NCBI GenBank assembly: GCA_013314855.1
Contig: JABUEW010000016.1
Span: 1 to 47,203 of the forward strand
DNA from: Bacillota bacterium
GTDB taxonomy: Bacteria; Bacillota; Clostridia; Acetivibrionales; DUMC01
Length of the DNA stretch: 47,203 nt
Direction of reading: 5' to 3'
Shown here: positions 34,913 to 47,203 of the stretch, piece after piece
Layout: every line of letters starts with the position of its first letter
Numbering within the stretch: the stretch's first letter is position 1
Position numbers and translations under genes: made by a program
The notes under the pieces: model-generated
Database searches by the model: none
Seen by the model: the letters and a program-made list of their open reading frames with translations, nothing else
Told to the model about the DNA's origin: nothing

Positions 34913-37033
34913 TTACATACTTTTTCTTTTTTCTTTGGTAATTTCTTTTGTAAAATTACACTTATTATTACTACATACAGCTTGCAGTTTTGAAGACACA
35001 CGTTTTTCTACCATAAAACTTCCGCACTTAGGGCAATTCTCTTCATATGGTTTATTCCATATCATAAACTTGCACTCGGGATAATTCTCACATCCATAAT
35101 ATTTCTTGCCCCTTTTAGTCTTTTTCACTAATAATCTGCCCTTACATTCGGGGCATAATACTCCTGCTTCTTCTACTATGGGCTTCGTATTCTTACATTC
35201 CGGGAATCCGGGACAAGCAAGGAATTTTCCATACCTTCCCGATTTTACAACCATATTTTTTCCACATTTTTCACATATAACGTCTGTCTCTTCATCAGGC
35301 ACTTCAATATGACCTATTTTAACTTCAGCCTCTTTTAACAAATGTTCGAAATCCTCATAAAATTCCCTTACAATTTCTACCCACTTTTTTTTACCCTCTT
35401 CAATACTATCCAGTTGTGCTTCCATTAATGCGGTAAACTGAACATCTACGATTTCCTTAAAGTGTATTTTCATTAAATCCGTAACAATTTTCCCTAATTC
35501 TGTGGGGACCAGGAATTTCCCATCCCTTACCACATAACCCCTCGAAATTATTGTAGTGATAATAGGAGCATAAGTACTTGGACGTCCTATTCCTTTTTCT
35601 TCAAGAGCTTTTACCAATGTGGCTTCGGTATATCGTTGAGGCGGTTGTGTAAAATGTTGCTGTGGCATTAGCTTCTTTAAAGACAAAACCTCTCCTTCTA
35701 TCAACTCAGGTAAATCAATATTATTTTCTTCTGCTTCGTCCTCTTTGCCGTTATTATCTTCTTGTTCTTCCTGATATATTTTGTTATATCCATCAAATTT
35801 AAGGTGCGAACCTGAAGCTTTAAAAATATAACTTGAAACTGCTACATCAACATTTAGAGTATCATATATTGCCTGTGTCATTTGACTTGCAATAAACCTT
35901 TCCCAGATTAGTTTATATAATCTGTATTGGTCCCTATTTAAGGAATCTTTTATCATATCTGGTTCCATCCATACATTTGTAGGACGGATAGCCTCATGAG
36001 CATCTTGTGCTGATGATTTGCTCTTAAATATCCTTGGCGCATCAGGGAGGTATTCCTTACCAAATTTATTTTCAATAAAACTTCTTACTTCTCCTAATGC
36101 TTCATTGGAAATTCTCGTAGAATCAGTACGCATATATGTTATCAATCCGATGGAACCTTCCCCTTTTATTTCAACTCCTTCGTATAGTTGTTGGGCCACC
36201 ATCATTGTGCGTTTTGTAGTAAAACCTAGTTTTCGTGATGCTTCCTGCTGTAATGTACTGGTTATAAATGGGGGTGAAGGATTCTTTTTTCTTTCCCCTT
36301 TTTTAATCTTTTTTACAAAAAACTCTTTCCCCTGTAAATTTCTCAAGATATTGTCCGCATTTTCCTTGCTTTTTAAGTCAATCTTCTCTTTATCAGTACC
36401 ATAGAATTTAGCCTTAAATGTAGCTTTGCTGTCCTTTTTGGCAAGAGTTGCAGTAATCGTCCAGTATTCTTCCGGTATAAAATTTTCTATTTCTTCCTCT
36501 CTGTCAGTAATGAGCCTTACAGCAACAGATTGTACCCTTCCTGCGCTTAAACCCTTTCGTACCTTTTCCCATAGAATTGGGCTAATCTTGTATCCTACTA
36601 TCCTATCTAATACCCGTCTTGCCTGTTGGGCATCAACCAGGTTCATATTTATCTCTCTTGGAGATTTTATTGCATTTAAGACAGCATTTTTCGTTATTTC
36701 GTTAAACGTAATCCTTAATTTAGATTTTTCATCTAAATCCAATAAATTTGCTAGATGCCAGGAAATAGCCTCTCCTTCCCTGTCCGGGTCTGTTGCAAGG
36801 AAGACAGACTCTGCTCCTTTGGCTTCTTTCTTAAGTTTTGAAATCACTTCTCCTTTACCGCGGATAGGTATATACTTGGGTTCAAAATTGTTTTCTATAT
36901 CTATACCCATCTGGCTTTTAGGCAAATCCCTTATATGGCCTAAGGAAGCCTCAACTTTGTAGTTCTTTCCTAAAAATTTGCTTATGCTTTTAACCTTTCC
37001 AGGAGATTCAACAATAATGAGTTTATAAGGCAT
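34913..37033 (-). CDS. topA: DNA topoisomerase I TopA
   Basis: Relaxes negative supercoils. The Toprim domain has VESPGK (Glu9) and DPDREGEA (about 82-89); the catalytic Tyr300 lies in GLITYMRTDS. The core continues to about 560. Three C-terminal four-cysteine zinc ribbons follow (CEKCGK..., CPECKG..., CPKCGS...), as usual for Firmicutes, with all cysteines present. GGAGG precedes the ATG. It has its own promoter. Confidence 0.97.
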   Translation of the reverse strand: MPYKLIIVESPGKVKSISKFLGKNYKVEASLGHIRDLPKSQMGIDIENNFEPKYIPIRGKGEVISKLKKEAKGAESVFLATDPDREGEAISWHLANLLDLDEKSKLRITFNEITKNAVLNAIKSPREINMNLVDAQQARRVLDRIVGYKISPILWEKVRKGLSAGRVQSVAVRLITDREEEIENFIPEEYWTITATLAKKDSKATFKAKFYGTDKEKIDLKSKENADNILRNLQGKEFFVKKIKKGERKKNPSPPFITSTLQQEASRKLGFTTKRTMMVAQQLYEGVEIKGEGSIGLITYMRTDSTRISNEALGEVRSFIENKFGKEYLPDAPRIFKSKSSAQDAHEAIRPTNVWMEPDMIKDSLNRDQYRLYKLIWERFIASQMTQAIYDTLNVDVAVSSYIFKASGSHLKFDGYNKIYQEEQEDNNGKEDEAEENNIDLPELIEGEVLSLKKLMPQQHFTQPPQRYTEATLVKALEEKGIGRPSTYAPIITTIISRGYVVRDGKFLVPTELGKIVTDLMKIHFKEIVDVQFTALMEAQLDSIEEGKKKWVEIVREFYEDFEHLLKEAEVKIGHIEVPDEETDVICEKCGKNMVVKSGRYGKFLACPGFPECKNTKPIVEEAGVLCPECKGRLLVKKTKRGKKYYGCENYPECKFMIWNKPYEENCPKCGSFMVEKRVSSKLQAVCSNNKCNFTKEITKEKRKSM

Positions 37034-37081
37034 TTTATTCCTCCATATTGAAAATTTATTCTATGTGTTTCTTACGAAAAC

Positions 37082-37111
37082 ATTATAACCACATATAGAT
37101 ATATTAGTCAA
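37082..37111 (-). promoter_or_regulatory. Sigma-A promoter of topA-trmFO
   Basis: On the minus strand TTGACT (37111-37106) and TATAAT (37087-37082) are 18 bases apart, about 50 bases upstream of the topA ATG. Near-consensus boxes in a short intergenic region. Confidence 0.75.
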
Positions 37112-37158
37112 ACATGAATTTGTGATAGCAGCTCTGAAATTTTATTTGTAATAATTGC

Positions 37159-38286
37159 CTAATATTGATTTCTTAGTTTAAATATTTTGCCCTGCATCTG
37201 CTCAACAATTCCTTTTAATTCGAGCATTGTTAATACGGAATTTATGTATTTTATGCTATATCCCGTCATATTAACTAAAAAATCAATATGCATAGGTTCA
37301 TACATAAGGCATTCTACTATGCGCCTTTCTTCATTATTAAGACCTTTATAATTTATTTGGTCATGCAATCCATAACTTTTGTCATTGCCTTTTGTCCTTT
37401 TTGATGCTGTATTATTTACAATATTATATATTTCCAGTTCTTCCAAAATATCTTCAATGCATGTAGTAAGTTTTGCCCCTTCTTTTATTAACTTATTGGT
37501 ACCTCTACTGTTAATGCGGTTAATATCGCCAGGCAATGCAAAAACTTCTCGTCCCTGTTCAAGGGCAAAATTAGCAGTTATTAAAGAACCGCTGTTTTCA
37601 GCAGCCTCCACAACTACTACTCCCAAGGATAGTCCACTAATTATGCGATTTCTAGCAGGAAAATTTTTAGGCAGAGGAGCAGTTCCGGGTAAATATTCCG
37701 AAATGACTGCTCCATTTTCAATAATGTCTTCCATTAGAGTTTTATTCTGCGGAGGATATACGATATCATGCCCGCATCCCAGTACTGCAATGGTCCTTCC
37801 TTTTGCCCTTAAAGCACCCTTATGGGCACTTGAATCTATACCTCTTGCCATACCGCTTACAATTGTTATTCCCAGGCTTGCAAGCTGGTATGCCAGTTCT
37901 TCTCCAGCCTCAAAACCATATGATGTAGCTTTTCTTGAGCCTACAAGAGCAATTGATTTTTCATTTTGTATTAACACACCTTTTACATATAAAACTACAG
38001 GAGGATCATATATGTTTTTTAAATAAAAGGGATATATTTCATCTTTTATCGTAATTACTTCAATTCCCAATTCAGCAATACTCTTCATGTATGTTGAAAT
38101 TTGAGTTTTATGTTTTTCATCAATAATCTGTCCTATAGAAACCTCTGTAAGGAACTGTAATTTCCTCAGCTCTTCTTCCGATGCTTCCCAGATATTTTTG
38201 GGGTCTTTAAAATAATCTAATAACTTAAGACGGTTTATTGGAGAAACCTTATCCAATGAACTTAACCATACCCAATATTTTTTCAC
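37159..38286 (-). CDS. dprA: DNA processing protein DprA (Smf)
   Basis: Loads RecA on incoming single-stranded DNA during transformation. A helix-hairpin-helix-like N-domain (1-65) leads to the Rossmann DprA domain with GSRKATSYGFEAGEELAYQL, IVSGMARGIDSSAHKGAL and GCGHDIVYP. A winged-helix C-domain (about 310-375) ends the protein. It starts at GTG with GAGGTG ahead. The order dprA-topA-trmFO is conserved in Firmicutes. Confidence 0.96.
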   Translation of the reverse strand: MKKYWVWLSSLDKVSPINRLKLLDYFKDPKNIWEASEEELRKLQFLTEVSIGQIIDEKHKTQISTYMKSIAELGIEVITIKDEIYPFYLKNIYDPPVVLYVKGVLIQNEKSIALVGSRKATSYGFEAGEELAYQLASLGITIVSGMARGIDSSAHKGALRAKGRTIAVLGCGHDIVYPPQNKTLMEDIIENGAVISEYLPGTAPLPKNFPARNRIISGLSLGVVVVEAAENSGSLITANFALEQGREVFALPGDINRINSRGTNKLIKEGAKLTTCIEDILEELEIYNIVNNTASKRTKGNDKSYGLHDQINYKGLNNEERRIVECLMYEPMHIDFLVNMTGYSIKYINSVLTMLELKGIVEQMQGKIFKLRNQY

Positions 38287-38301
38287 AAAACTTCACCTCG
38301 T

Positions 38302-38363
38302 AAAAAATGGTATAAGCAGATTTATATCCAACTTTTTTATACAATCTACTTATACCATTTTTT
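38302..38363 (-). terminator. Strong intrinsic terminator between the SDR gene and dprA
   Basis: Arms 38302-38322 and 38343-38363 pair over 21 bases with one mismatch. The stem is A-rich on one side and T-rich on the other, so it can work in both directions. It ends the catabolic unit whose last gene stops at 38398. Confidence 0.85.
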
Positions 38364-38377
38364 TTATAATTTTACAA
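38349..38377 (-). promoter_or_regulatory. Candidate dprA promoter overlapping the terminator
   Basis: TTGTAA (38377-38372) and TATAAG (38354-38349) on the minus strand are 17 bases apart. The -10 lies inside the first arm of the terminator stem, so transcription would begin near the end of that arm (about 38342), and dprA mRNA would not form the hairpin. Confidence 0.45.
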
Positions 38378-38397
38378 TATATATTATTTTTTAACAG

Positions 38398-39183
38398 CTA
38401 CTTTGCAGTATATCCCCCATCTACAGGTATATTTGCTCCTGTAATATACAAGGAAGCATCGGAGGCCAGAAAAACAATAATACCCTTAAGGTCGGTTTCA
38501 TTGGCCATCCTGCCTAATAGTGTTCTGTCGCTATAACGCTTGACAAATATTTCTTCATGTTTGCTTGTTTGGAATCCTCCAGGGCTTACACAATTACATC
38601 TTACATTCCTAGAGCCGTAGTAACTGGCTACAAACCTGGTAAAATTAATCATTCCTCCTTTGTGGAAGAAGTAATCGGGTGCAAAACCGTCCCAACCAAG
38701 CCCTTCATACAAAGTTCTGTCAGGACCTACCATACCCTGCATAGAACCGATGTTTATAATTGATCCACCGCCCTGTTGGGCCATAACATCTCCAAAAGCC
38801 CTGGTAATTATAAACAGTCCTGTTGCGTTTATCTTCATACTTTCTGCAAAGGTTGAAGCATCCGAATACCATCCATTCTTCATTGGCCTGGCAACTGCAT
38901 TATTGACCAGGATATCAACACGGTTACTTCTTTTAAGTACTTCATCCCTTAATGCAAGTATGGACTTTTCATCCCCTAAATCCACTTTTAGAGCCTGCAC
39001 ATTGTAACCTCCATTTCTGAGAGTTCCTGCCACCTTTTCAAGTTCCTCCACATTCCGAGAGGCAATGTAGGTATCTGCTCCCGCTTCAGCAACAGCAGAT
39101 ACAATTTGTCTTCCATAAAGTCCTGCACCACCGGTTACAACAGCAACTTTTCCCTTTAAAGAAAAACTCTCAAGTACATTCAT
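38398..39183 (-). CDS. SDR-family NAD(P)-dependent oxidoreductase
   Basis: A classical short-chain dehydrogenase of 261 residues. The cofactor motif is TGGAGLYG (17-24), with NNAV (94-97) and catalytic Ser147, Tyr171 and Lys175 (YFFHK). The Ser-Tyr gap is 24 residues, longer than the usual 12-14. A similar insertion occurs in SDRs of acidic-sugar and nonulosonate-type loci, as I recall. The C-terminus SLYITGANIPVDGGY is typical. The ATG at 39183 has GGGGGAA ahead; an earlier ATG has no ribosome site. Last gene of its unit, 25 bases after the aldolase gene. Probably oxidises or reduces a sugar-derived alcohol; the substrate is unknown. Confidence 0.88.
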   Translation of the reverse strand: MNVLESFSLKGKVAVVTGGAGLYGRQIVSAVAEAGADTYIASRNVEELEKVAGTLRNGGYNVQALKVDLGDEKSILALRDEVLKRSNRVDILVNNAVARPMKNGWYSDASTFAESMKINATGLFIITRAFGDVMAQQGGGSIINIGSMQGMVGPDRTLYEGLGWDGFAPDYFFHKGGMINFTRFVASYYGSRNVRCNCVSPGGFQTSKHEEIFVKRYSDRTLLGRMANETDLKGIIVFLASDASLYITGANIPVDGGYTAK

Positions 39184-39208
39184 TTTATTTTCCCCCATAT
39201 TTCTTGTT

Positions 39209-40036
39209 TCAATATATGCTATTGTCTTTTTTAGTAATAATTGATGTACTGGTTATTCTAGCAAAAGCATTGGCGATATCGCGGCAATATTGGCTTAATC
39301 CTACAACATCCGCCCCAACATTAATGAAAGTGTAACCTATATCAATCAGCTCCTCAAGGTTTCCTATCCCGCCTACAGTACCTGCAAACTTCCCATGGGC
39401 AAGAGCAGTTTCAGCAATTTTCTTTCTAGCCCGTTTTATTTCCGGATGGTCCCATTGGCCTAGTTTGCCAATTCCATGACTAAAATCACCAGGCCCGAAA
39501 AACAGGACGTCAATACCTTCCAAAGAAGCAATTTCATCAAGTTCATCAAGAGGCTCAGGGTCTTCTATCTGTACCATTACAAATCTTTGATCATTTGCCT
39601 GTTTCGCATATTCTACCAAATCCAGGTTACAATAAGCCCCATCGGAACACCCGCCATCAATAGGACGCCTTCCTATTGGGTGAAAACGGGTCATCATTAC
39701 AACTTTTTTTGCATCCTCATAACTCATTATATGGGGTACCATTATACCCGTAGCATCCATTTCAAGGGGTTTAACATGGTCACTATAGCTGCCCCTGGAT
39801 ACCCTTACCATTAAATCCACATCCCATGCTTTTGCAGCCAGGATTTGTTTTTCAATGATGCCCCAGTCATTGGGTACATGTTCCATATCAGTCCATATAC
39901 AGTCAAATCCCATCATAGATGCAATTTCAACTACTCTTGAGTCTGCGATATTCACTTTAAAACAACTTGCTATCTTTCCTGTACGAAGCTTCTGTAAAAC
40001 TCTACTTCTTCTCATATTAAAATTATTCTGCTCCAT
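39209..40036 (-). CDS. HpcH/HpaI-family aldolase (RhmA-like)
   Basis: A 275-residue TIM-barrel class II aldolase. The catalytic residues of the HpaI/RhmA type fall at the right spacing: His53 (TDMEH), Arg78, metal ligands Glu158 (VQIEDPE) and Asp184 (FFGPGDFSHG). Such enzymes split 2-keto-3-deoxy or 4-hydroxy-2-keto acids to pyruvate and an aldehyde. In this cluster it is the likely last carbon-splitting step. GAAGGTG precedes the ATG. The aldol substrate is inferred only. Confidence 0.88.
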   Translation of the reverse strand: MEQNNFNMRRSRVLQKLRTGKIASCFKVNIADSRVVEIASMMGFDCIWTDMEHVPNDWGIIEKQILAAKAWDVDLMVRVSRGSYSDHVKPLEMDATGIMVPHIMSYEDAKKVVMMTRFHPIGRRPIDGGCSDGAYCNLDLVEYAKQANDQRFVMVQIEDPEPLDELDEIASLEGIDVLFFGPGDFSHGIGKLGQWDHPEIKRARKKIAETALAHGKFAGTVGGIGNLEELIDIGYTFINVGADVVGLSQYCRDIANAFARITSTSIITKKDNSIY

Positions 40037-40046
40037 AAAGACACCT

Positions 40047-41015
40047 TCACTCTAATAAAATTTCATCCAGCTTAACTTCCCGGCCACCCTCTTCACGGCT
40101 CCTGATACCCGCAATTATTATCTTCATAAGTTCCTGGGTCTCTGAAAAGGGATATGGCCTTATGCCTGTTTGCAAATATTGAATAAATGCTTCCATCTGA
40201 GTTTTAAAAGCATAAAAAGTATCGGATGAAGCTGCCCCTATTCGCCCTGCCGTACCGTATATTTGAAGAACTCCAAAGGCACCATACATATCGTTTATGG
40301 CTATAACCATAACGTCAGCTCCGGTTTTATGTTTTAAATGAACTATATTTCTCTCTTTATCTCCAATATTCCTTGCAGATAAAAACCCAGGTCCAATAAT
40401 GGGATATATTCCCTCAACCGCGTGTATCCCATACCTTTCCCATGTTTTTGGAGTTGTTATACTTGCATACCTTATTTCTCCTATGTCCCATGTAGAGATT
40501 CCATATGGCATAAATTCCTTGGTATATCTCATACTGCTTGAAGACATTATAGGCGCTCCGTCTTTTACCCATTTAGTAAAGACCTTCAAATCTTCCTCAT
40601 TGTCCACCATAGGCTTATCCACAAAAATAGGGAGGCCGGCTTCTACAAAAGGTCTGCACCTTTCCACATGCTCATATCCCTTATCTGTAGGAATTATAAC
40701 CGCATCTACCTCACCTATAACATCTTCTGGTTTTTTGACTACATTTGGGATTAAGGAGGCTTTAGCAACTTTTACCGCATCTTCTGGGTCATCGGTCCAA
40801 ATATGCGTAACCTTCGCTCCGGGTATTTGAAGTGTTTCTTTGGGTTGTCTTCCAAGATATTGTGGTATTACCGGATAAGGGCATTTAGCCATTTCTTCAG
40901 GGTTATAACCATTAAATATGGCACTCCAAGAATACGGGTGACCATTTCCGTCTACCATTCCCACCATGGCCAGATTAATTTCCGGTTTATTAACAAGTGG
41001 TTTAATATTATCCAT
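40047..41015 (-). CDS. Gfo/Idh/MocA-family oxidoreductase, atypical
   Basis: A 322-residue member with a shifted N-terminal nucleotide motif, AMVGMVDGNGHPYSWSAIFN, and IFVDKPM in place of the usual EKP motif. These features mark a subgroup of the family that I cannot tie to a known reaction. Three bases separate it from the other Gfo/Idh gene, with GAGGTG formed by that gene's last codons. Two paralogues in series suggest two different positions oxidised or reduced on the same ring or chain, or a heteromer. Confidence 0.85.
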   Translation of the reverse strand: MDNIKPLVNKPEINLAMVGMVDGNGHPYSWSAIFNGYNPEEMAKCPYPVIPQYLGRQPKETLQIPGAKVTHIWTDDPEDAVKVAKASLIPNVVKKPEDVIGEVDAVIIPTDKGYEHVERCRPFVEAGLPIFVDKPMVDNEEDLKVFTKWVKDGAPIMSSSSMRYTKEFMPYGISTWDIGEIRYASITTPKTWERYGIHAVEGIYPIIGPGFLSARNIGDKERNIVHLKHKTGADVMVIAINDMYGAFGVLQIYGTAGRIGAASSDTFYAFKTQMEAFIQYLQTGIRPYPFSETQELMKIIIAGIRSREEGGREVKLDEILLE

Positions 41016-41018
41016 ACT

Positions 41019-42059
41019 TTACACCTCGACAAATATGCCTTTTTTAGAAGACTCATAGGCTGCTTCAACCACTCTTTGTACCTGAAGAGCATCCTCCAAA
41101 GGAACTTTAACCGGTTCATTATTCAGTATTGACTGGCAAAAAGATTCTATTTCTTTAGTATACATATTACCAAATTCAACATCGATATTAACAGGTGTAA
41201 CATCTACTCTATCTTGCTTAGCATCATAACTTAAGGTATCGTCTGAAAGAACCACATCCAATTTCCCACCTTCTACCTGGCTTATAGTTCCTTCTGCAAG
41301 CATGCTTCCCCTTGTGCCGTATATTTCAAATCTACATTTTGCAGCTGCATCGGGTATATTAAAATTAGAATCAACATATGCATAAGCCCCATTGTCCATT
41401 TCAAAAATAACGGATGCAGAATCTTCAACCTCATATTTGAATGTTTTTGTACCTGTAAGAGCAGCAACTCTTTTTGCTTTTCCCCCGGTTACATACTGAA
41501 TAAGGTCGATGCAATGTACTCCCATATCCATTAAGGCTCCACCGCCGGAAGTGTTTTTTTTCTGCCTCCAGCTGCCGGGCATATCGGGGTACCAGCAAGT
41601 CAGTTGCGCCCTACAAGACACTACATTGCCCAATTTACCGTTACTGATAATTTCCTTCATTTTCTGGTGATAGGCATGGTATCTCATCATAAATCCAACA
41701 GCAATAAGAACTCCTTCTTTCTTGCAAGCTTTCGCTACTTCTTCTCCTTCATCAGCTGTAAGAGCAACAGGTTTCTCTATCAATATATGTTTTTTAGCCT
41801 TTGCTGCCTTTATGGCCTGTTCTTTGTGATATACAACCGGAGAAGCAATGTAAACAGCATCAATTTCAGGGTCTGCCAATAGTTTGTCAACATCATCATA
41901 AGCTCTTTTTGCACTATATTTTGCTCTTAATTTCTCAGCCAACTCCATATTTACTTCCATTACTGCAACAAGTTCAGCGTTTTTAGCCAACATCATACCC
42001 GGTATGGTCCTCCTGTCGGCAATACCTCCTGCTCCTATTACACCCCATCTTACTTTCAT
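41019..42059 (-). CDS. Gfo/Idh/MocA-family oxidoreductase
   Basis: A 346-residue NAD(P) sugar dehydrogenase. Rossmann motif WGVIGAGGIADRRTIPG at the start, HILIEKPVALT with the catalytic Lys, and the DMGVHCIDLIQYV helix with the conserved Asp and His of the active site. GGGGAGGG precedes the ATG. It sits 96 bases after the PIG-L gene; no terminator or convincing promoter is seen in that gap. Members act on inositol, glucose 3-OH and many sugars; the substrate here is unknown. Confidence 0.9.
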   Translation of the reverse strand: MKVRWGVIGAGGIADRRTIPGMMLAKNAELVAVMEVNMELAEKLRAKYSAKRAYDDVDKLLADPEIDAVYIASPVVYHKEQAIKAAKAKKHILIEKPVALTADEGEEVAKACKKEGVLIAVGFMMRYHAYHQKMKEIISNGKLGNVVSCRAQLTCWYPDMPGSWRQKKNTSGGGALMDMGVHCIDLIQYVTGGKAKRVAALTGTKTFKYEVEDSASVIFEMDNGAYAYVDSNFNIPDAAAKCRFEIYGTRGSMLAEGTISQVEGGKLDVVLSDDTLSYDAKQDRVDVTPVNIDVEFGNMYTKEIESFCQSILNNEPVKVPLEDALQVQRVVEAAYESSKKGIFVEV

Positions 42060-42155
42060 AAATAACCCTCCCCTTTTACTTTATTATTTTTTTTACTTGG
42101 TATTAAACTTACGTCCTATAATTTATGTCTTATATTATCATAATAGTATTATTTA

Positions 42156-42863
42156 TTATGGCAATAATCTTTTGGTAGCCAGCCGTGGCCAGGTTACACA
42201 CCTGCGGAATCCTTCTGCATATTTTACGCCACACTGCAATCCCCTAAATTTCGATACTGTTCTTACAAAATCAAGAAAATCTATTTTATCGTGCTCCAAC
42301 ATCCATTTAATTTGGCTTTGATGGCAATTTAAAGCATTAATTTTTATTTCTATAGTCTCTGTAACATCAACATACTCCTCAGGCAAAAAATTCACACCTG
42401 CAATAGTATCCATATAATAGATCGGAACTACATTGGGATAACTTGGGCTTTTAGTAAATGTATGGGGGATACTGGAGGAAAAACTGGCATCAAAAACCAT
42501 TTTTCCAACTTCTACATGGTCCTTCATATAATCATCCGGGCCATGGGTTATAATTATATCCGGCCTTGTATATCTAATAACCTCAATAAGTTTCATAACT
42601 GTATCTTCATTGTAAGAATTTACTTTTAAATCGGGAACATCAAGGTTAATGACCTCTTTTGCTCCAACTACCTTCCCCGATTCTTCAGCTTCCTTGGTCC
42701 TTATCTCCCTTAAATCATCGGGCATAATTACTGCATGACCCATATTGCCGTTTGCAACATGGCACATAAATACATTATGGCCTTGTTTTGCATATTTAGC
42801 GAGAGTACCTGCACATGCTACTTCCAGATCATCGGGGTGGCATCCAACTGCTAGTACATTCAT
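42156..42863 (-). CDS. PIG-L/LmbE-family deacetylase
   Basis: A 235-residue zinc hydrolase that removes N-acetyl from sugars or similar. Zinc and base residues are GCHPDDLE (His9, Asp11, Asp12) and HGPDDYMKDHVEVG (His116 as third ligand). GGAGGGAG lies ahead of the ATG at 42863; an upstream in-frame ATG lies before that site and is rejected. First gene of the second unit. Together with the ceramidase-like gene, it means two amide-cleaving enzymes are coded side by side, which points to an N-acylated substrate. Confidence 0.88.
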   Translation of the reverse strand: MNVLAVGCHPDDLEVACAGTLAKYAKQGHNVFMCHVANGNMGHAVIMPDDLREIRTKEAEESGKVVGAKEVINLDVPDLKVNSYNEDTVMKLIEVIRYTRPDIIITHGPDDYMKDHVEVGKMVFDASFSSSIPHTFTKSPSYPNVVPIYYMDTIAGVNFLPEEYVDVTETIEIKINALNCHQSQIKWMLEHDKIDFLDFVRTVSKFRGLQCGVKYAEGFRRCVTWPRLATKRLLP

Positions 42864-42910
42864 AAATTTCTCCCTCCTAATTTCCACAAACTCTGTCACT
42901 AATTCATTTC

Positions 42911-42954
42911 ATTATATTTTATCTATTCTTATATAAGAGATATCTTATATAAGA
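42911..42954 (-). promoter_or_regulatory. Candidate promoter with twin palindromic operators
   Basis: On the minus strand TATAAT (42916-42911) is 48 bases upstream of the PIG-L start. The -35 region 17 bases ahead (CTCTTA) is poor. Two copies of the perfect 12-bp palindrome TCTTATATAAGA lie at 42927-42938 (over the -35) and 42943-42954, inside a 16-bp tandem duplication (42928-42943 and 42944-42959). A weak -35 covered by paired operators suggests activator or repressor control. Confidence 0.55.
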
Positions 42955-42957
42955 GAT

Positions 42958-42986
42958 ATAAAGGTGCCTTTAATAAGCACCTTTAT
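42958..42986 (-). terminator. Intrinsic terminator after the aminotransferase gene
   Basis: A 10-bp stem (ATAAAGGTGC with GCACCTTTAT) and 9-base loop follow the DegT stop by about 20 bases. The T-run is short (TTTAT within the arm), so it may be only partly efficient. It separates the two transcription units. Confidence 0.6.
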
Positions 42987-43006
42987 TATTTATAACATCA
43001 ATAATA

Positions 43007-44284
43007 TTACTTCTTTAAATGTTTATCCAAGAGCTTTTTAACTGCATCAATGCACCTTTGTATGTGACACTCCTCCCATGAAGGATGCAAGAAAAGGCTC
43101 ACTGTTTGAGATCTTAAACTCTTAGCCACAGGACATACAACCTTATCATACTTTACAGATTCAGGATTTGTATACTCCTTGGACTTAAACGGAAACTTAG
43201 CAGCACCAAAACCATTCAATTCTTTATATGCTCTTTCTTCATACGCTTCAGGCCATTGAATTCCATAACAGGGAATTCCTTCAGACTGTAATTCTTTTAC
43301 AAACTGTTCTGCATTACAATGAAGTTTTTCGGTATCAATAAGTATTGGATACCACCAGTAAGCATTTTTTCTTTCTTCGGTATTCAATGGTAATGCTTTT
43401 ATGCCTTCCAAACCTTTAAAAGCTTCATCATACAATTTTGCATATTTTCTGCGTCTTGCCAGGTTCCAGGAATCGAACCTCTTTAACTCATTAAGGCCTA
43501 TTATCGATTGGATTTCAGTCATGCGGTAATTAAAACCTACTCTGTGGTGAATGTACGGCAATTTTTCCTCCAGGGCAAGGAGGTTCATACGGGTCCTTAC
43601 ATCATAGCCGTGGTCCCTGAATGAACGGCACTCCCAAGCAAGATTTTCATCATCAGTAACAACCATGCCACCTTCTCCACCTGTTGTAAAATGTTTGCTC
43701 TGGCAGAAACTAAAACAGCCGATGTCTCCCACTGTACCTGCTTTTTTACCTTTGTACTCACCTCCAAAGCACTGGGCACAGTCTTCAATAACTTTAAGAT
43801 TATGCTTTTTGGCTAAATCCATAATGGATCCCATATCACAAACAACACCGTATAAGTGTACAACAACAATACCTTTTGTTCTCTCGTTAATTAATAGCTC
43901 AATGGCTTTCGGGTCAATTGTATGGTCTTCTGTTACATCAGCAAAAACCGGTATTGCTCCTGCCTGAACAATAGCAAAAGATGATGCTATAAAAGAGTAT
44001 GACGGTACAATAACTTCATCCCCGGGACCAATCCCTAAACTGCTAATTGCAATATGTAACGCTGCCGTACCATTGGTACACGAGATTGCATACTTGGAAC
44101 CAATCCACTTAGCCCATTCATTTTCAAATTCCATGCCTTTTGGTCCCGTCCAATAGTTTACTTTCCCATTTTTTAAAGGTTCCAATACATCCCTAAAAGT
44201 TTCCTCGGCAAATTGGGGCCAAACCGGAAATCCCAATTCCGCTGAACCGGGAGCATTCATAACAACACTATTCTCTTTTGCCAT
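43007..44284 (-). CDS. DegT/DnrJ/EryC1/StrS-family PLP aminotransferase
   Basis: A 425-residue sugar aminotransferase. NGTAALHIAI binds the PLP phosphate, Asp168 (VIEDCAQ) the ring nitrogen, and Lys197 (FSFCQSKHFTTGGEGG) forms the Schiff base; all are present. Family members add or remove an amino group at a keto-sugar carbon. Usually they are biosynthetic, acting on nucleotide sugars, but here no nucleotidyltransferase or glycosyltransferase is near. A catabolic role, removing the amino group freed by the deacetylases, is possible. AGAGGTGG precedes the ATG at 44284; an upstream start is inside it. It follows the ceramidase-like gene by 85 bases. Confidence 0.92.
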   Translation of the reverse strand: MAKENSVVMNAPGSAELGFPVWPQFAEETFRDVLEPLKNGKVNYWTGPKGMEFENEWAKWIGSKYAISCTNGTAALHIAISSLGIGPGDEVIVPSYSFIASSFAIVQAGAIPVFADVTEDHTIDPKAIELLINERTKGIVVVHLYGVVCDMGSIMDLAKKHNLKVIEDCAQCFGGEYKGKKAGTVGDIGCFSFCQSKHFTTGGEGGMVVTDDENLAWECRSFRDHGYDVRTRMNLLALEEKLPYIHHRVGFNYRMTEIQSIIGLNELKRFDSWNLARRRKYAKLYDEAFKGLEGIKALPLNTEERKNAYWWYPILIDTEKLHCNAEQFVKELQSEGIPCYGIQWPEAYEERAYKELNGFGAAKFPFKSKEYTNPESVKYDKVVCPVAKSLRSQTVSLFLHPSWEECHIQRCIDAVKKLLDKHLKK

Positions 44285-44318
44285 ACTTAATCCACCTCTC
44301 ATATTATATTTATATTTT

Positions 44319-44343
44319 ACTGCTTTTCATAAATAAAAGCAGT
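44319..44343. repeat. Perfect 9-bp inverted repeat upstream of the aminotransferase gene
   Basis: ACTGCTTTT (44319-44327) and AAAAGCAGT (44335-44343) enclose a 7-base loop in the gap between the ceramidase-like and DegT genes. No T-run follows on the minus strand. It may be a leader hairpin or protein site. Confidence 0.5.
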
Positions 44344-44369
44344 TGATATTCCACTCTGTATCTATGTAA

Positions 44370-45689
44370 CTAAAGAGTTTTCACAAGATTTAAAACTTCA
44401 CTTGTGAGGATATCTCCTGCATCTTCTCTCAACTTACTTGAGCATGCCGTTTTAATTTCATATCCTCCCTCATCAAAAGCAGCCTTTGTAGGTATATAGC
44501 CTACCATATCGTTAGCAAGGCCAAATACTAACATATTCTTATGACCCGATTCTTTTTTTATTCTAAGGCCGAATTCTACAAATACCTCTCCCGGTAAAGT
44601 AGTAATAATTGTATCACCAAGCCTGACTGCCTGTATTTCTGTAATTATATCTTTTTCCTTTACCTGGGCTAATTTTAAAATTTCCCGGGCATAAACCTCA
44701 TCAGGGACACCGTCAAGAAGTGAAGGTATGTAATCTCCTCTCTCCTCAAGCAACTTCTTTGCCCATTCAACAGCTTCTTTTGTTATTGGGCGTAAAGGAA
44801 GGCTTATTTTTTTGGATAGAATTTTTAATGGTTTGGTTTCCAATCTTTCCTTTTTTTCAAGAGAATGGCTAACATGGCTTCCTAATAACTCGCCTATACG
44901 TTTTGCTTCTTCAAAACCTCTTCCCTGATTCTTATCCCGGAAGTTTATATGGTTGACATTTCCCTCTGCCCCATTGGCAAAAAATACTATTACATGATTA
45001 CCATATTTCTCTTTTATGTAGTTATCCAGATAATTAATATAGTCCCTGGACCATAGCCAGTCTTTTCCCACAAGTACAGCCGGGTGTAGAGTAAAATTAA
45101 CCATTAGGGCCATCATTTCTCCCTTGAGGTTATTTATTGATATTACAATTAATTCCGGGTCAATCGGGCCTGCTTCCTTTTTTACATGTCCAATATCCAC
45201 ATCCTCCCAATTCATTTTTACAGAACCGTCTTTCATTATAAGCCTTCTGTTAAAACTTAAGTGGTAAACGTTATCCTTAGTAACGAACATTTCAGCTTCC
45301 TCAAGTCTTCCAGGCAATAGTCCTATTTCATCTGAGATTTTTTTAGTTATGTCATTAATATATTGACCGCATCCTTTATCAAGTTCTTTACGGAATATTC
45401 CCAATACATCAGGCCCTGAATGCGTATGGGTAGCATTTATGACAATATTTTCGGGCGCTATGCCTGCTTTTTTATTTATCTCATCTTTAATTCTTTTGCA
45501 TGTTTCAAAATTCAAACCCAACAAGTCAAAACTTAAGAAACAGAACCGTTTTCCCTCTTCCTCCAACAAAATTGCATTACAATATAAGTTATCATGAATA
45601 CCTCTCGATATATCATCATCCCTGACATTTCCTCCCATAGGTAACCCTATGGGAGGTGTTATATCTATACTTTTTACTGCTGCTTTCAC
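44370..45689 (-). CDS. Neutral/alkaline ceramidase-like hydrolase, single-domain
   Basis: A 439-residue protein of the neutral/alkaline non-lysosomal ceramidase N-domain family. The zinc signature ATHTHSGP (about 87-93, His88/His90) and a second ligand region FTLHPAVL (around 205-212), then DYINYLDNYIKEKYG, match the family. Signal peptide and the C-terminal immunoglobulin-like domain of true ceramidases are absent, so it is a cytosolic short form. It most likely cleaves an amide bond; a sphingolipid substrate is improbable in such a host. The start is GTG (45689) with GAGGGGG seven bases ahead; an ATG at 45713 overlaps the ROK stop but lacks a site. Confidence 0.8.
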   Translation of the reverse strand: MKAAVKSIDITPPIGLPMGGNVRDDDISRGIHDNLYCNAILLEEEGKRFCFLSFDLLGLNFETCKRIKDEINKKAGIAPENIVINATHTHSGPDVLGIFRKELDKGCGQYINDITKKISDEIGLLPGRLEEAEMFVTKDNVYHLSFNRRLIMKDGSVKMNWEDVDIGHVKKEAGPIDPELIVISINNLKGEMMALMVNFTLHPAVLVGKDWLWSRDYINYLDNYIKEKYGNHVIVFFANGAEGNVNHINFRDKNQGRGFEEAKRIGELLGSHVSHSLEKKERLETKPLKILSKKISLPLRPITKEAVEWAKKLLEERGDYIPSLLDGVPDEVYAREILKLAQVKEKDIITEIQAVRLGDTIITTLPGEVFVEFGLRIKKESGHKNMLVFGLANDMVGYIPTKAAFDEGGYEIKTACSSKLREDAGDILTSEVLNLVKTL

Positions 45690-45709
45690 ATTATTACCCC
45701 CTCGAATAT

Positions 45710-46969
45710 TCATAAATGCATACCATTAAGTAGTACACCAGGCTCAAATATGTTGTCCAGTACATACTTTGCACCGCCTAATGTAACAGTGTTACCTTTT
45801 AATAAAGAAAATCTTATCTGAATTCTTCCTTTATTTGGTTTTAATTGTATATCATCTATATATTTCTTTACTTTTTGGAGAAACTCATTACCAAGTTTTG
45901 TTATTTCTCCGCCAATTACTATCTCTTCCGGATTAAGCAAATTAATTATATTGGTTATTCCAAAGGCAAGTTTTTTTGCAGTATCATCAATAACTTCCGA
46001 TACCAGTTTATCCTTCTTAGAAAATGCTTCCCTCACTATATCAATATTTATTTTGTTAAAATTGTTACCTATTACATCTTTTACTATAGTATCTCTTCCT
46101 GACTTTATACCCGCTACTATGTTATGAAATATTGAAGGAATGCTTACCATGGTTTCCAGGCAACCTCTATTACCACACTTGCATCCCGGAGCGTTTATAT
46201 CTATTGTTATGTGGCCGATTTCACCTGCCAGCCCCAGTGACCCTGTAAATATTTGCCCGTTTAAAATTATTCCTGAGCCTACTCCCACATTTATATCAAT
46301 AAATATCAGATTCCGGACATTGCTGTCTGAGCCAAACTCCTTTTCTGCATAAGCCGAAAACCAGGATTCATTTCCCAATAATATAGGTATGTCATTATAC
46401 CTGTCTTTAATGTAATAATAAAAATCATTGCTTTCATCTATAGGTATGACTGTTGACGTTGTTACCCGATTATTTTCAGTATCAATCAAACCCGGAACGC
46501 CCAGACATATTCCAAATAATTTTACTTCATCAATATTAGCTGCCTGCAAATTTTTTTCTAAAGTTACTACAATCTCCTGACCAATAGTACTATAATCCGT
46601 CACTTCTACCTTTTTTCCCAGTACTTGATTGCACTTTAAGTCATAGAGATAAAAAAAGAAACCTTCTGTTACCATTTCAACAGACGCTATATAACCTCCT
46701 GCCGGGTTTACCTCCAGCATTATGGGTTTTCTTCCGCTGGTTGTTGTAGCCCCTTCTCCTGTCTCAACTATAATATCGTTTTTAATTAGTTCTTCAGCCA
46801 ATGATGAAACAGTTGTGGGACTCAACCCGGTAATATTAGCAAGGTCTGCCCTGGAAACAGGTCCATACCTGTTTATAAGGTTAAATATCAGTGTAAGGTT
46901 GGTTTCTTTTACAAGTTGTTGATTTGCCGCTTGCTTTTCTTCTTTTTTTGTTTTCTTCAACTTTAACAT
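45710..46969 (-). CDS. ROK-family transcriptional regulator (NagC/XylR type)
   Basis: A 419-residue sugar-responsive repressor. A winged helix-turn-helix (about 25-85; SRADLANITGLSPTTVSSLAEE) is followed by the ROK fold. The zinc motif is complete: His252 (GEIGH), then Cys262, Cys264 and Cys269 (CKCGNRGCLE). Where ROK kinases have the catalytic Asp (xNDxxA), this protein has LGNESW, so it should bind but not phosphorylate its sugar. First gene of the first unit, so it probably regulates itself and the cluster. GGAG precedes the ATG. The ligand is likely a sugar or amino sugar handled by the neighbours. Confidence 0.92.
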   Translation of the reverse strand: MLKLKKTKKEEKQAANQQLVKETNLTLIFNLINRYGPVSRADLANITGLSPTTVSSLAEELIKNDIIVETGEGATTTSGRKPIMLEVNPAGGYIASVEMVTEGFFFYLYDLKCNQVLGKKVEVTDYSTIGQEIVVTLEKNLQAANIDEVKLFGICLGVPGLIDTENNRVTTSTVIPIDESNDFYYYIKDRYNDIPILLGNESWFSAYAEKEFGSDSNVRNLIFIDINVGVGSGIILNGQIFTGSLGLAGEIGHITIDINAPGCKCGNRGCLETMVSIPSIFHNIVAGIKSGRDTIVKDVIGNNFNKINIDIVREAFSKKDKLVSEVIDDTAKKLAFGITNIINLLNPEEIVIGGEITKLGNEFLQKVKKYIDDIQLKPNKGRIQIRFSLLKGNTVTLGGAKYVLDNIFEPGVLLNGMHL

Positions 46970-47030
46970 ATATATTTCTCCAGTGAATGAATTAATTATT
47001 TATACACAAAATACTCGCTTCGTCTTTTTA

Positions 47031-47059
47031 ATTATATCATACTCATTTTAACAAAGCAA
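47031..47059 (-). promoter_or_regulatory. Sigma-A promoter of the ROK unit
   Basis: On the minus strand TTGCTT (47059-47054) and TATAAT (47036-47031) are 17 bases apart, with a TGA just ahead of the -10 (extended -10). The leader to the ROK ATG is about 55 bases. Beyond it, 47060-47203 shows no gene or clear structure. Confidence 0.65.
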
Positions 47060-47203
47060 TAGTTTATGGTAAATTTCAGAGCTGAAGCATGAAAATTTTA
47101 TTCTTATCCATTAATAGTGGCTGCGTTAGTAATTTTATCCAATTATATAATAATATTACATAAATTTAACCATACGTTTAAGTCATCGGATAACACTATA
47201 ACC

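Follow-up and report, generated by a model that had tools for sequence, protein, structure and literature searches.

An eight-gene clostridial operon that appears to join a conserved core, probably for amino-sugar breakdown, to a separately conserved oxidoreductase–aldolase module

What substrate might be handled by eight closely packed genes at one end of a Bacillota contig, and do these genes form a single pathway? The stretch of DNA analysed here (the window) is the entire 47,203-nucleotide contig C16 (JABUEW010000016.1, assembly GCA_013314855.1; Clostridia), in which eight intact open reading frames fill positions 38398–46969, all on the minus strand. In order of transcription these encode ROK, CER, DEGT, PIGL, GFO1, GFO2, ALD and SDR, named after their families (Table 1). 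The initial annotation had proposed that these families, with intact catalytic residues, constitute an undescribed cluster for an N-acylated amino sugar or aminocyclitol. The family assignments were borne out, as each of the eight proteins scored above its Pfam cut-off (SDR, HpcH/HpaI aldolase, Gfo/Idh twice, PIG-L, DegT, Ceramidase_alk, and ROK with a helix-turn-helix domain) and the active-site motifs were present. Comparison with other genomes indicates that this operon probably combines two enzyme sets, each conserved on its own; with slightly better than even confidence we read this as a composite catabolic operon for an N-acylated amino sugar under a NagC-like ROK repressor, the substrate, direction, step order and intermediates being those that we infer from family chemistry.

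The composite structure is apparent by comparison with G002, a genome of the same family, which carries ROK, CER, DEGT, PIGL and GFO1 (64%, 67%, 85%, 80% and 79% identical, respectively) in the same order as the window and directly before dprA (61% identical), topA and a flagellar rod gene. GFO2, ALD and SDR are encoded on a different contig of G002, together with a GH36 gene, a GntR-type regulator and an aldo-keto reductase. As G002 has the core alone at the same site and the second module elsewhere, the window is a composite of two modules; the two operons otherwise match but differ by the gain or loss of a carbon-processing module.

The distribution of the core was analysed using our own gene calls for the relatives, made by homology-weighted choice of open reading frames and not taken from annotations. 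Of 397 other genomes sampled from the phylum, six carry a DEGT orthologue (E<1e-120), these six spanning four families, and 10 genomes of the same draw have a CER match (E<1e-30); all six DEGT genomes lie within the ten CER genomes (hypergeometric 4e-11, not corrected for phylogeny). Within the order, four of 57 further genomes have GFO1 (E<1e-80). DEGT (58–85% identical) and GFO1 share one locus in all ten other core genomes, the DEGT of G030 being a fragment at a contig end; since these genomes were found via a DEGT or GFO1 search, counts of these two genes carry selection, and the informative point is that a search with either gene always turned up its partner. PIGL lies alongside them in eight of the ten loci, the exceptions being G060, where the contig ends 435 bases past DEGT, and G071, with none in 18.5 kb. 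CER and ROK were each found in six loci (a 24% ROK match in G360 was not counted), as was a NagB-like protein that is discussed below. ROK, CER, DEGT, PIGL and GFO1 form a conserved five-gene core operon. GFO2 (at least 46% identical) and SDR were present on the core contig in just two of the ten genomes, within 10 kb in G060 and approximately 23 kb away in G360, with ALD only in the latter.

Loci of the second module were collected by scanning genome_contigs (one genome per species, 84,980 species) for GFO2, which gave 47 loci; the scan relied on six short peptide patterns and so missed distant relatives. Their titles include Paenibacillus, Clostridia, Verrucomicrobia, Opitutaceae, Armatimonadetes, Lentisphaerae, Hydrogenedentota, Spirochaetes, Phycisphaerae and others. 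Within 6 kb of GFO2, an ALD homologue (at least 38%) was found in 27 of the 47 loci, an SDR homologue (at least 45%) in 32 and both in 24; for the 25 loci with full 6-kb flanks the figures were 18 for ALD and 22 for SDR. By comparison, DEGT, PIGL and GFO1 (at least 40%) and ROK (at least 28%) were found within 6 kb in none of the 47, and CER (at least 22%) in five. Given that ALD and SDR recur near GFO2 while core genes other than CER do not, GFO2-ALD-SDR is a module in its own right. With flanks of up to 10 kb, the recurrent partners across the 47 loci were an aldo-keto reductase (17), other Gfo/Idh proteins (16), a class III aminotransferase (12), a NagA-like amidohydrolase (11; 204.7 bits with the NagA model, under its cut-off of 225.65), an MlrC-like protein (8), SSF (7) and IclR (7), each partner family being named from one or two members. 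A lack of co-occurrence in other genomes, which the initial annotation named as a refutation, was not what we saw, as the core recurs in ten other genomes. The eight genes are not one conserved unit, the five-gene core and the three-gene module being mostly kept apart. A pair of small cysteine-containing proteins (~150–170 amino acids each) was also seen near GFO2 or GFO1 in several genomes (L124:4595-5563, L060:3672-4603 and L126:13359-14340), with no Pfam match in the four tested.

The core proteins were then compared with characterised relatives. A PLP (pyridoxal phosphate)-binding lysine in place of a histidine separates DegT aminotransferases from DegT-type dehydratases, and DEGT belongs with the aminotransferases, having this lysine in an SxK motif (CFSFCQSK at 196). 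Its best match in the PDB is 7l7x (1.9e-78), which belongs to PMC8040287, a paper on an aminotransferase for 2,4-diacetamido-2,4,6-trideoxyglucose; DEGT also matches the 2-deoxy-scyllo-inosose aminotransferase 5w71 (7e-58) and scores 250.3 bits with the PseC model (cut-off 423.5). GFO1 is a Gfo/Idh/MocA member with a Rossmann motif, EKP and GGGxxxDxGxH; it matches GenD2 (4e-24) and KanD2 (1e-20), and its best NCBIfam model is inositol 2-dehydrogenase at 175.5 of the 355 bits needed. PIGL has the HPDDxE motif, and its nearest relatives are diacetylchitobiose deacetylases, LmbE-type proteins and BshB1 (140.8 bits with the BshB1 model, short of the 182.5 cut-off). ROK scores 203.8 bits with the NagC model, under its cut-off of 650, and has the zinc motif; as it lacks a DxGGT-type kinase motif, it is likelier to be a repressor than a kinase.

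CER exceeds the Ceramidase_alk cut-off (55.0 versus 32.1 bits) and contains the motifs HTHSGP, PGExF and GGYE. Its predicted structure, from a six-sequence alignment, has a pLDDT of 77.6, with active-site loops (residues 97–112 included) below 50, and shares the whole catalytic-domain fold with neutral ceramidase 2zws (Z 31.7, rmsd 3.8, 381 residues aligned). Residues H96, H98, H210, E376, Y406 and Y418 are invariant in the six sequences and align with 4wgk and 2zws at the putative zinc site, the Glu/Tyr stretch with only 7.9 and 1.6 bits; some of these presumably serve as the zinc ligands. CER differs from the neutral ceramidases in being only 17–19% identical to them and in aligning to residues 1–486 of 2zws only, and ceramide is unlikely to be its substrate here. 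A role for CER as a diketo-inositol hydrolase is a speculative alternative; PF04734 matched none of 14 control genomes, and IolN was named in none of the papers listed for it. The window's own genome has ceramidase-family matches at seven places (C6, C7, C16, C67, C77, C200 and C212), five of them over the cut-off, and their neighbours include a Gfo/Idh gene (C200), a DegT gene 37% identical to DEGT (C67), and a peptidase M20 with a nearby GH3 (C6).

GFO2 is a divergent Gfo/Idh/MocA oxidoreductase. It has DKP and GIH motifs, with DKP and His198 invariant in 33 sequences, and we take this Lys and His to be catalytic; G19, G23, N24, H26 and P27 are likewise invariant, yet the usual GxGxxG/A dinucleotide motif is missing and the sequence there reads VGMVDGNGHPYSW. 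Its predicted fold (pLDDT 96) places it among the Gfo/Idh proteins, the nearest structures being the nearly tied GenD2 (Z 29.2), KanD2 (28.6) and scyllo-inositol dehydrogenase (28.2); many top rows fall within 1 to 2 Z units, and this ranking picks no substrate. ALD contains DxEH, QxE and GPxD and scores 136.9 bits with HpaI and 130.7 with GarL, both under cut-off; SDR contains YxxxK and scores 195.3 bits with the gluconate 5-dehydrogenase subfamily, under its cut-off of 279. At a further locus of the window's own genome, L114 (C49:20000-29264) carries a second DegT and two Gfo/Idh genes, 28–31% identical to those of the window.

The NagB-like protein is likely to be a missing member of the core pathway. 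It is not encoded in the window, but the same genome has one on C1 (L127:8688-9656), with no Pfam match, that is 86% identical to a protein encoded between PIGL and GFO1 in G023. The family adjoins CER in G060 and G360 and occurs near GFO2 in L042, G026 and G001; in L073, NagA-like, NagB-like and ceramidase-like genes and one more run up to GFO2. The one homologue scored with the TIGR00502 NagB equivalog model, that of L042, reached 55.7 bits, below the cut-off of 236.9. In alignments to NagB proteins of known structure, the family retains MDE and the active-site His, while the GGTP-type phosphate loop and the catalytic Asp141, two places before that His, are replaced in 10 of 10 aligned sequences including the window genome's own copy; three operon-borne sequences of the order likewise lacked both in a separate alignment. 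From this pattern we read the protein as acting on a non-phosphorylated or otherwise different substrate. Approximately 3 kb from this gene in L127 (4412-5680) is a 35% homologue of the glutamate dehydrogenase that adjoins GFO1 in G060.

Starting from what was observed directly, namely gene content, conserved linkage, composite structure, predicted folds and active-site motifs, the chemistry of the families suggests every step of a possible route. Exo-glycosidases such as GH20 or GH109 would release an N-acylated amino sugar, which would then be imported and de-N-acylated by PIGL and/or CER. DEGT may move the amino group onto 2-oxoglutarate to give a keto sugar, and GFO1, with NAD(P)H, would interconvert keto and hydroxyl at the position acted on by DEGT, the step order placing keto reduction here. 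A second amine, if present, could be released as ammonia by the NagB-like protein. Redox steps by GFO2 and SDR would turn the deaminated carbon chain into a 2-keto acid, and ALD would cleave this to pyruvate (or hydroxypyruvate) and an aldehyde. A more specific version of this route, which we consider rather doubtful, would serve only sugars with two nitrogens (diacetamido sugars), for instance 2,3- or 2,4-diamino hexoses of bacterial glycans: one N-deacylase per amide (PIGL and CER), one deaminating enzyme per amine (transamination by DEGT, hydrolysis by the NagB-like protein) and restoration of the hydroxyl by GFO1, all on the free sugar, after which GFO2, SDR and ALD would carry out the oxidation and the aldol cleavage. 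In the G360 core locus, L126:14432-17971 encodes two proteins, one an FAD-linked oxidase and the other carrying electron-transfer flavoprotein domains, which perhaps oxidise a hydroxy acid product.

The initial annotation had expected the route to be non-phosphorylative, with no kinase, transporter or nucleotidyltransferase. The NagB-like protein without a phosphate loop is in line with this, but FGGY sugar kinases are present in the second-module loci of two relatives and the upstream side of the window is cut. There is no nucleotidyltransferase among the eight proteins; absence of a kinase or transporter cannot be judged upstream, where the contig ends 234 bases past ROK.

Several observations weigh against this reading as a composite catabolic operon. 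At this site the G002 operon lacks GFO2, ALD and SDR, and a search for GFO2 (E<1e-20) in the six phylum genomes with DEGT gave none in G071 or G091 and only a 28% match in G382; the core can therefore do without the second module. CER, ROK and the NagB-like protein are each lacking in four of the ten core loci, some of which are cut by contig ends. Among the models shown, none of the eight proteins reached a curated NCBIfam cut-off. There is no dehydratase among the eight to make a 2-keto-3-deoxy acid, and ALD may therefore use a different 2-keto acid. Finally, pairs of DegT and Gfo/Idh enzymes are familiar chiefly from biosynthetic pathways, and the nearest characterised relatives of DEGT are biosynthetic.

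These last two points raise the possibility that the core instead synthesises or remodels an amino sugar, GFO1 oxidising a hydroxyl and DEGT aminating the ketone, as in GenD2/GenS2 or UDP-diamino sugar synthesis, with PIGL and CER trimming acyl groups from intermediates. The DEGT matches to 7l7x and PseC and those of GFO1 to GenD2 and KanD2 would fit this; there is, against it, no nucleotidyltransferase, acetyltransferase or glycosyltransferase family among the eight proteins, although one AAC(3)-type acetyltransferase gene does occur in the G060 CER locus. The neighbours in relatives are exo-glycosidases, uptake systems, a NagC-like repressor and NagA-like and NagB-like proteins: a GH20 gene lies beside the core in G071 (with a 49% identical protein in G382); GH4, GH88, GH109 and an MFS transporter are neighbours of the core in G013; and ABC uptake and NagA-like proteins accompany CER and the NagB-like protein in G060, G360 and G026. 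A glutamate dehydrogenase adjoins GFO1 in G060 and a 95% identical one is found in G360, the two genomes being of one genus; this enzyme would recycle glutamate from deamination, yet could also supply glutamate for synthesis. In addition, GenS2 and GenD2 have been shown to deaminate kanamycin B and tobramycin (PMC4340712). Given the exo-glycosidases, uptake systems, glutamate dehydrogenase and NagC-like repressor, the lack of a nucleotide-sugar enzyme among the eight and the GenS2/GenD2 precedent, breakdown is clearly favoured and synthesis by the core is unlikely.

Two further readings concern the substrate and the unity of the operon. It is very improbable that the substrate is an aminocyclitol (inosamine) that DEGT would deaminate to an inosose, with GFO1 as an inositol-type dehydrogenase: this would account for the best NCBIfam model of GFO1 and the 5w71 match of DEGT, but DEGT is nearer to sugar aminotransferases, the GH20, GH109, NagA-like and NagB-like neighbours point to N-acetylhexosamines, and there was no match to an inositol dehydratase or isomerase among the scanned neighbour proteins, a chosen subset. 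We also find it improbable that the window holds two unrelated abutting operons, the three-gene module acting on another, nitrogen-free sugar acid. Separation of the modules in G002, the lack of DEGT, PIGL or GFO1 near GFO2 in all 47 loci and the many GFO2 loci with no amino-sugar gene among the clusters counted would be explained in this way; conversely, GFO1 and GFO2 are separated by only 3 bp on one strand, both modules share a contig in G060 and G360, and the class III aminotransferase and NagA-like partners of GFO2 recur as described above.

We found no pathway with this gene set in the literature, in a search confined to open-licence papers that took in kanosamine, non-phosphorylative amino-sugar routes, 7L7X, NtdA/NtdC, IolN, KanD2/KanS2 and WlbA/WlbC; combinations of the family names yielded no paper at all. 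The enzymes are all from known families, and no description of their combination as a pathway was found in that literature; with deacylases, aminotransferase and Gfo/Idh enzymes conserved, the original proposal of a cluster for N-acylated amino-sugar chemistry is supported. The canonical GlcNAc route consists of NagC, NagA and NagB. Like it, the present system combines a ROK/NagC-like regulator with a de-N-acetylase family and a NagB-like protein, but the NagA-type amidohydrolase and NagB are both absent among the eight genes; the core has PIG-L and ceramidase-like hydrolases where nag has NagA, adds DegT and Gfo/Idh enzymes, is associated with a NagB-like protein lacking the phosphate loop, and has no phosphotransferase system (PTS) or GlcNAc kinase in the window operon. 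The ong oxidative chitin pathway (PMC9537276) resembles the proposed route in proceeding by deacetylation and deamination to a keto-deoxy acid; its cluster holds GH20 and SSS-type uptake, and its D-aminoacylase and D-amino acid deaminase families are absent among the eight window proteins. In GenD2/GenS2 (PMC4340712), a dehydrogenase (GenD2 being among the GFO1 matches) and a PLP aminotransferase exchange OH and NH2, with deamination as the reverse reaction, but this belongs to antibiotic biosynthesis on a pseudotrisaccharide and the step involves no deacylases or aldolase. If the catabolic reading is correct, small ceramidase-like hydrolases could be placed as sugar N-acylases, DegT and Gfo/Idh enzymes would be seen to pair up in breakdown instead of synthesis, and there would be a testable catabolic route for rare amino sugars.

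Table 1. Coordinates of the cluster genes and the adjacent inverted repeat in the window.
Feature	Description	Module	Position	Strand	Evidence	Likely start
ROK	NagC-like transcriptional repressor	core operon	45710..46969	-	PF00480 2.6e-45 + HTH_24	
CER	ceramidase-like hydrolase	core operon	44370..45713	-	PF04734 7.4e-15	GTG 45689
DEGT	DegT/DnrJ/EryC1 aminotransferase	core operon	43007..44302	-	PF01041 6.4e-101	44284
PIGL	PIG-L family de-N-acetylase	core operon	42156..42899	-	PF02585 2.1e-27	42863
GFO1	Gfo/Idh/MocA dehydrogenase	core operon	41019..42059	-	PF01408 3.4e-30	
GFO2	divergent Gfo/Idh/MocA oxidoreductase	second module	40047..41015	-	PF01408 2.6e-9 only	
ALD	HpcH/HpaI-type class II aldolase	second module	39209..40036	-	PF03328 9.5e-29	
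SDR	short-chain dehydrogenase	second module	38398..39198	-	PF13561 2.6e-41	39183
Inverted repeat	terminator-like, SDR-dprA gap		38302..38363	.	21-nt arms, 95% complementary	

The initial annotation had judged local GC by eye to be higher than in the flagellar genes, and the GC content of the cluster genes is above that of the rest of the window (mean 0.391 versus 0.342 for 36 other open reading frames; Mann-Whitney p = 0.0002), as is GC at third codon positions (0.317 versus 0.275); the comparison set comprised the longest non-overlapping frames of at least 120 amino acids, some of which are possibly not genes. The shift is modest and we do not claim lateral transfer from it. PHROGs gave general matches only, for four of the eight proteins, with nothing suggesting a phage origin, and plasmids gave a single distant GFO2 match (29.6%, E<1e-20).

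Promoter-like sites in 37000–47203 were not enriched (31 versus 37.4 in shuffles) and no promoter is named; terminator-like sites were not enriched either (7 versus 6.8). Shine-Dalgarno-like sequences are present at the four likely starts given in Table 1. The region 38290–38375 between SDR and dprA holds a strong hairpin (-25.6 kcal/mol, z = -7.1), which was absent from the list given by a stricter terminator pattern. In the gap between DEGT and PIGL (42958–42986), the transcribed strand carries a 12-pair hairpin with a weak T tail, a type of site not above shuffle frequency, which could possibly attenuate expression of the distal genes.

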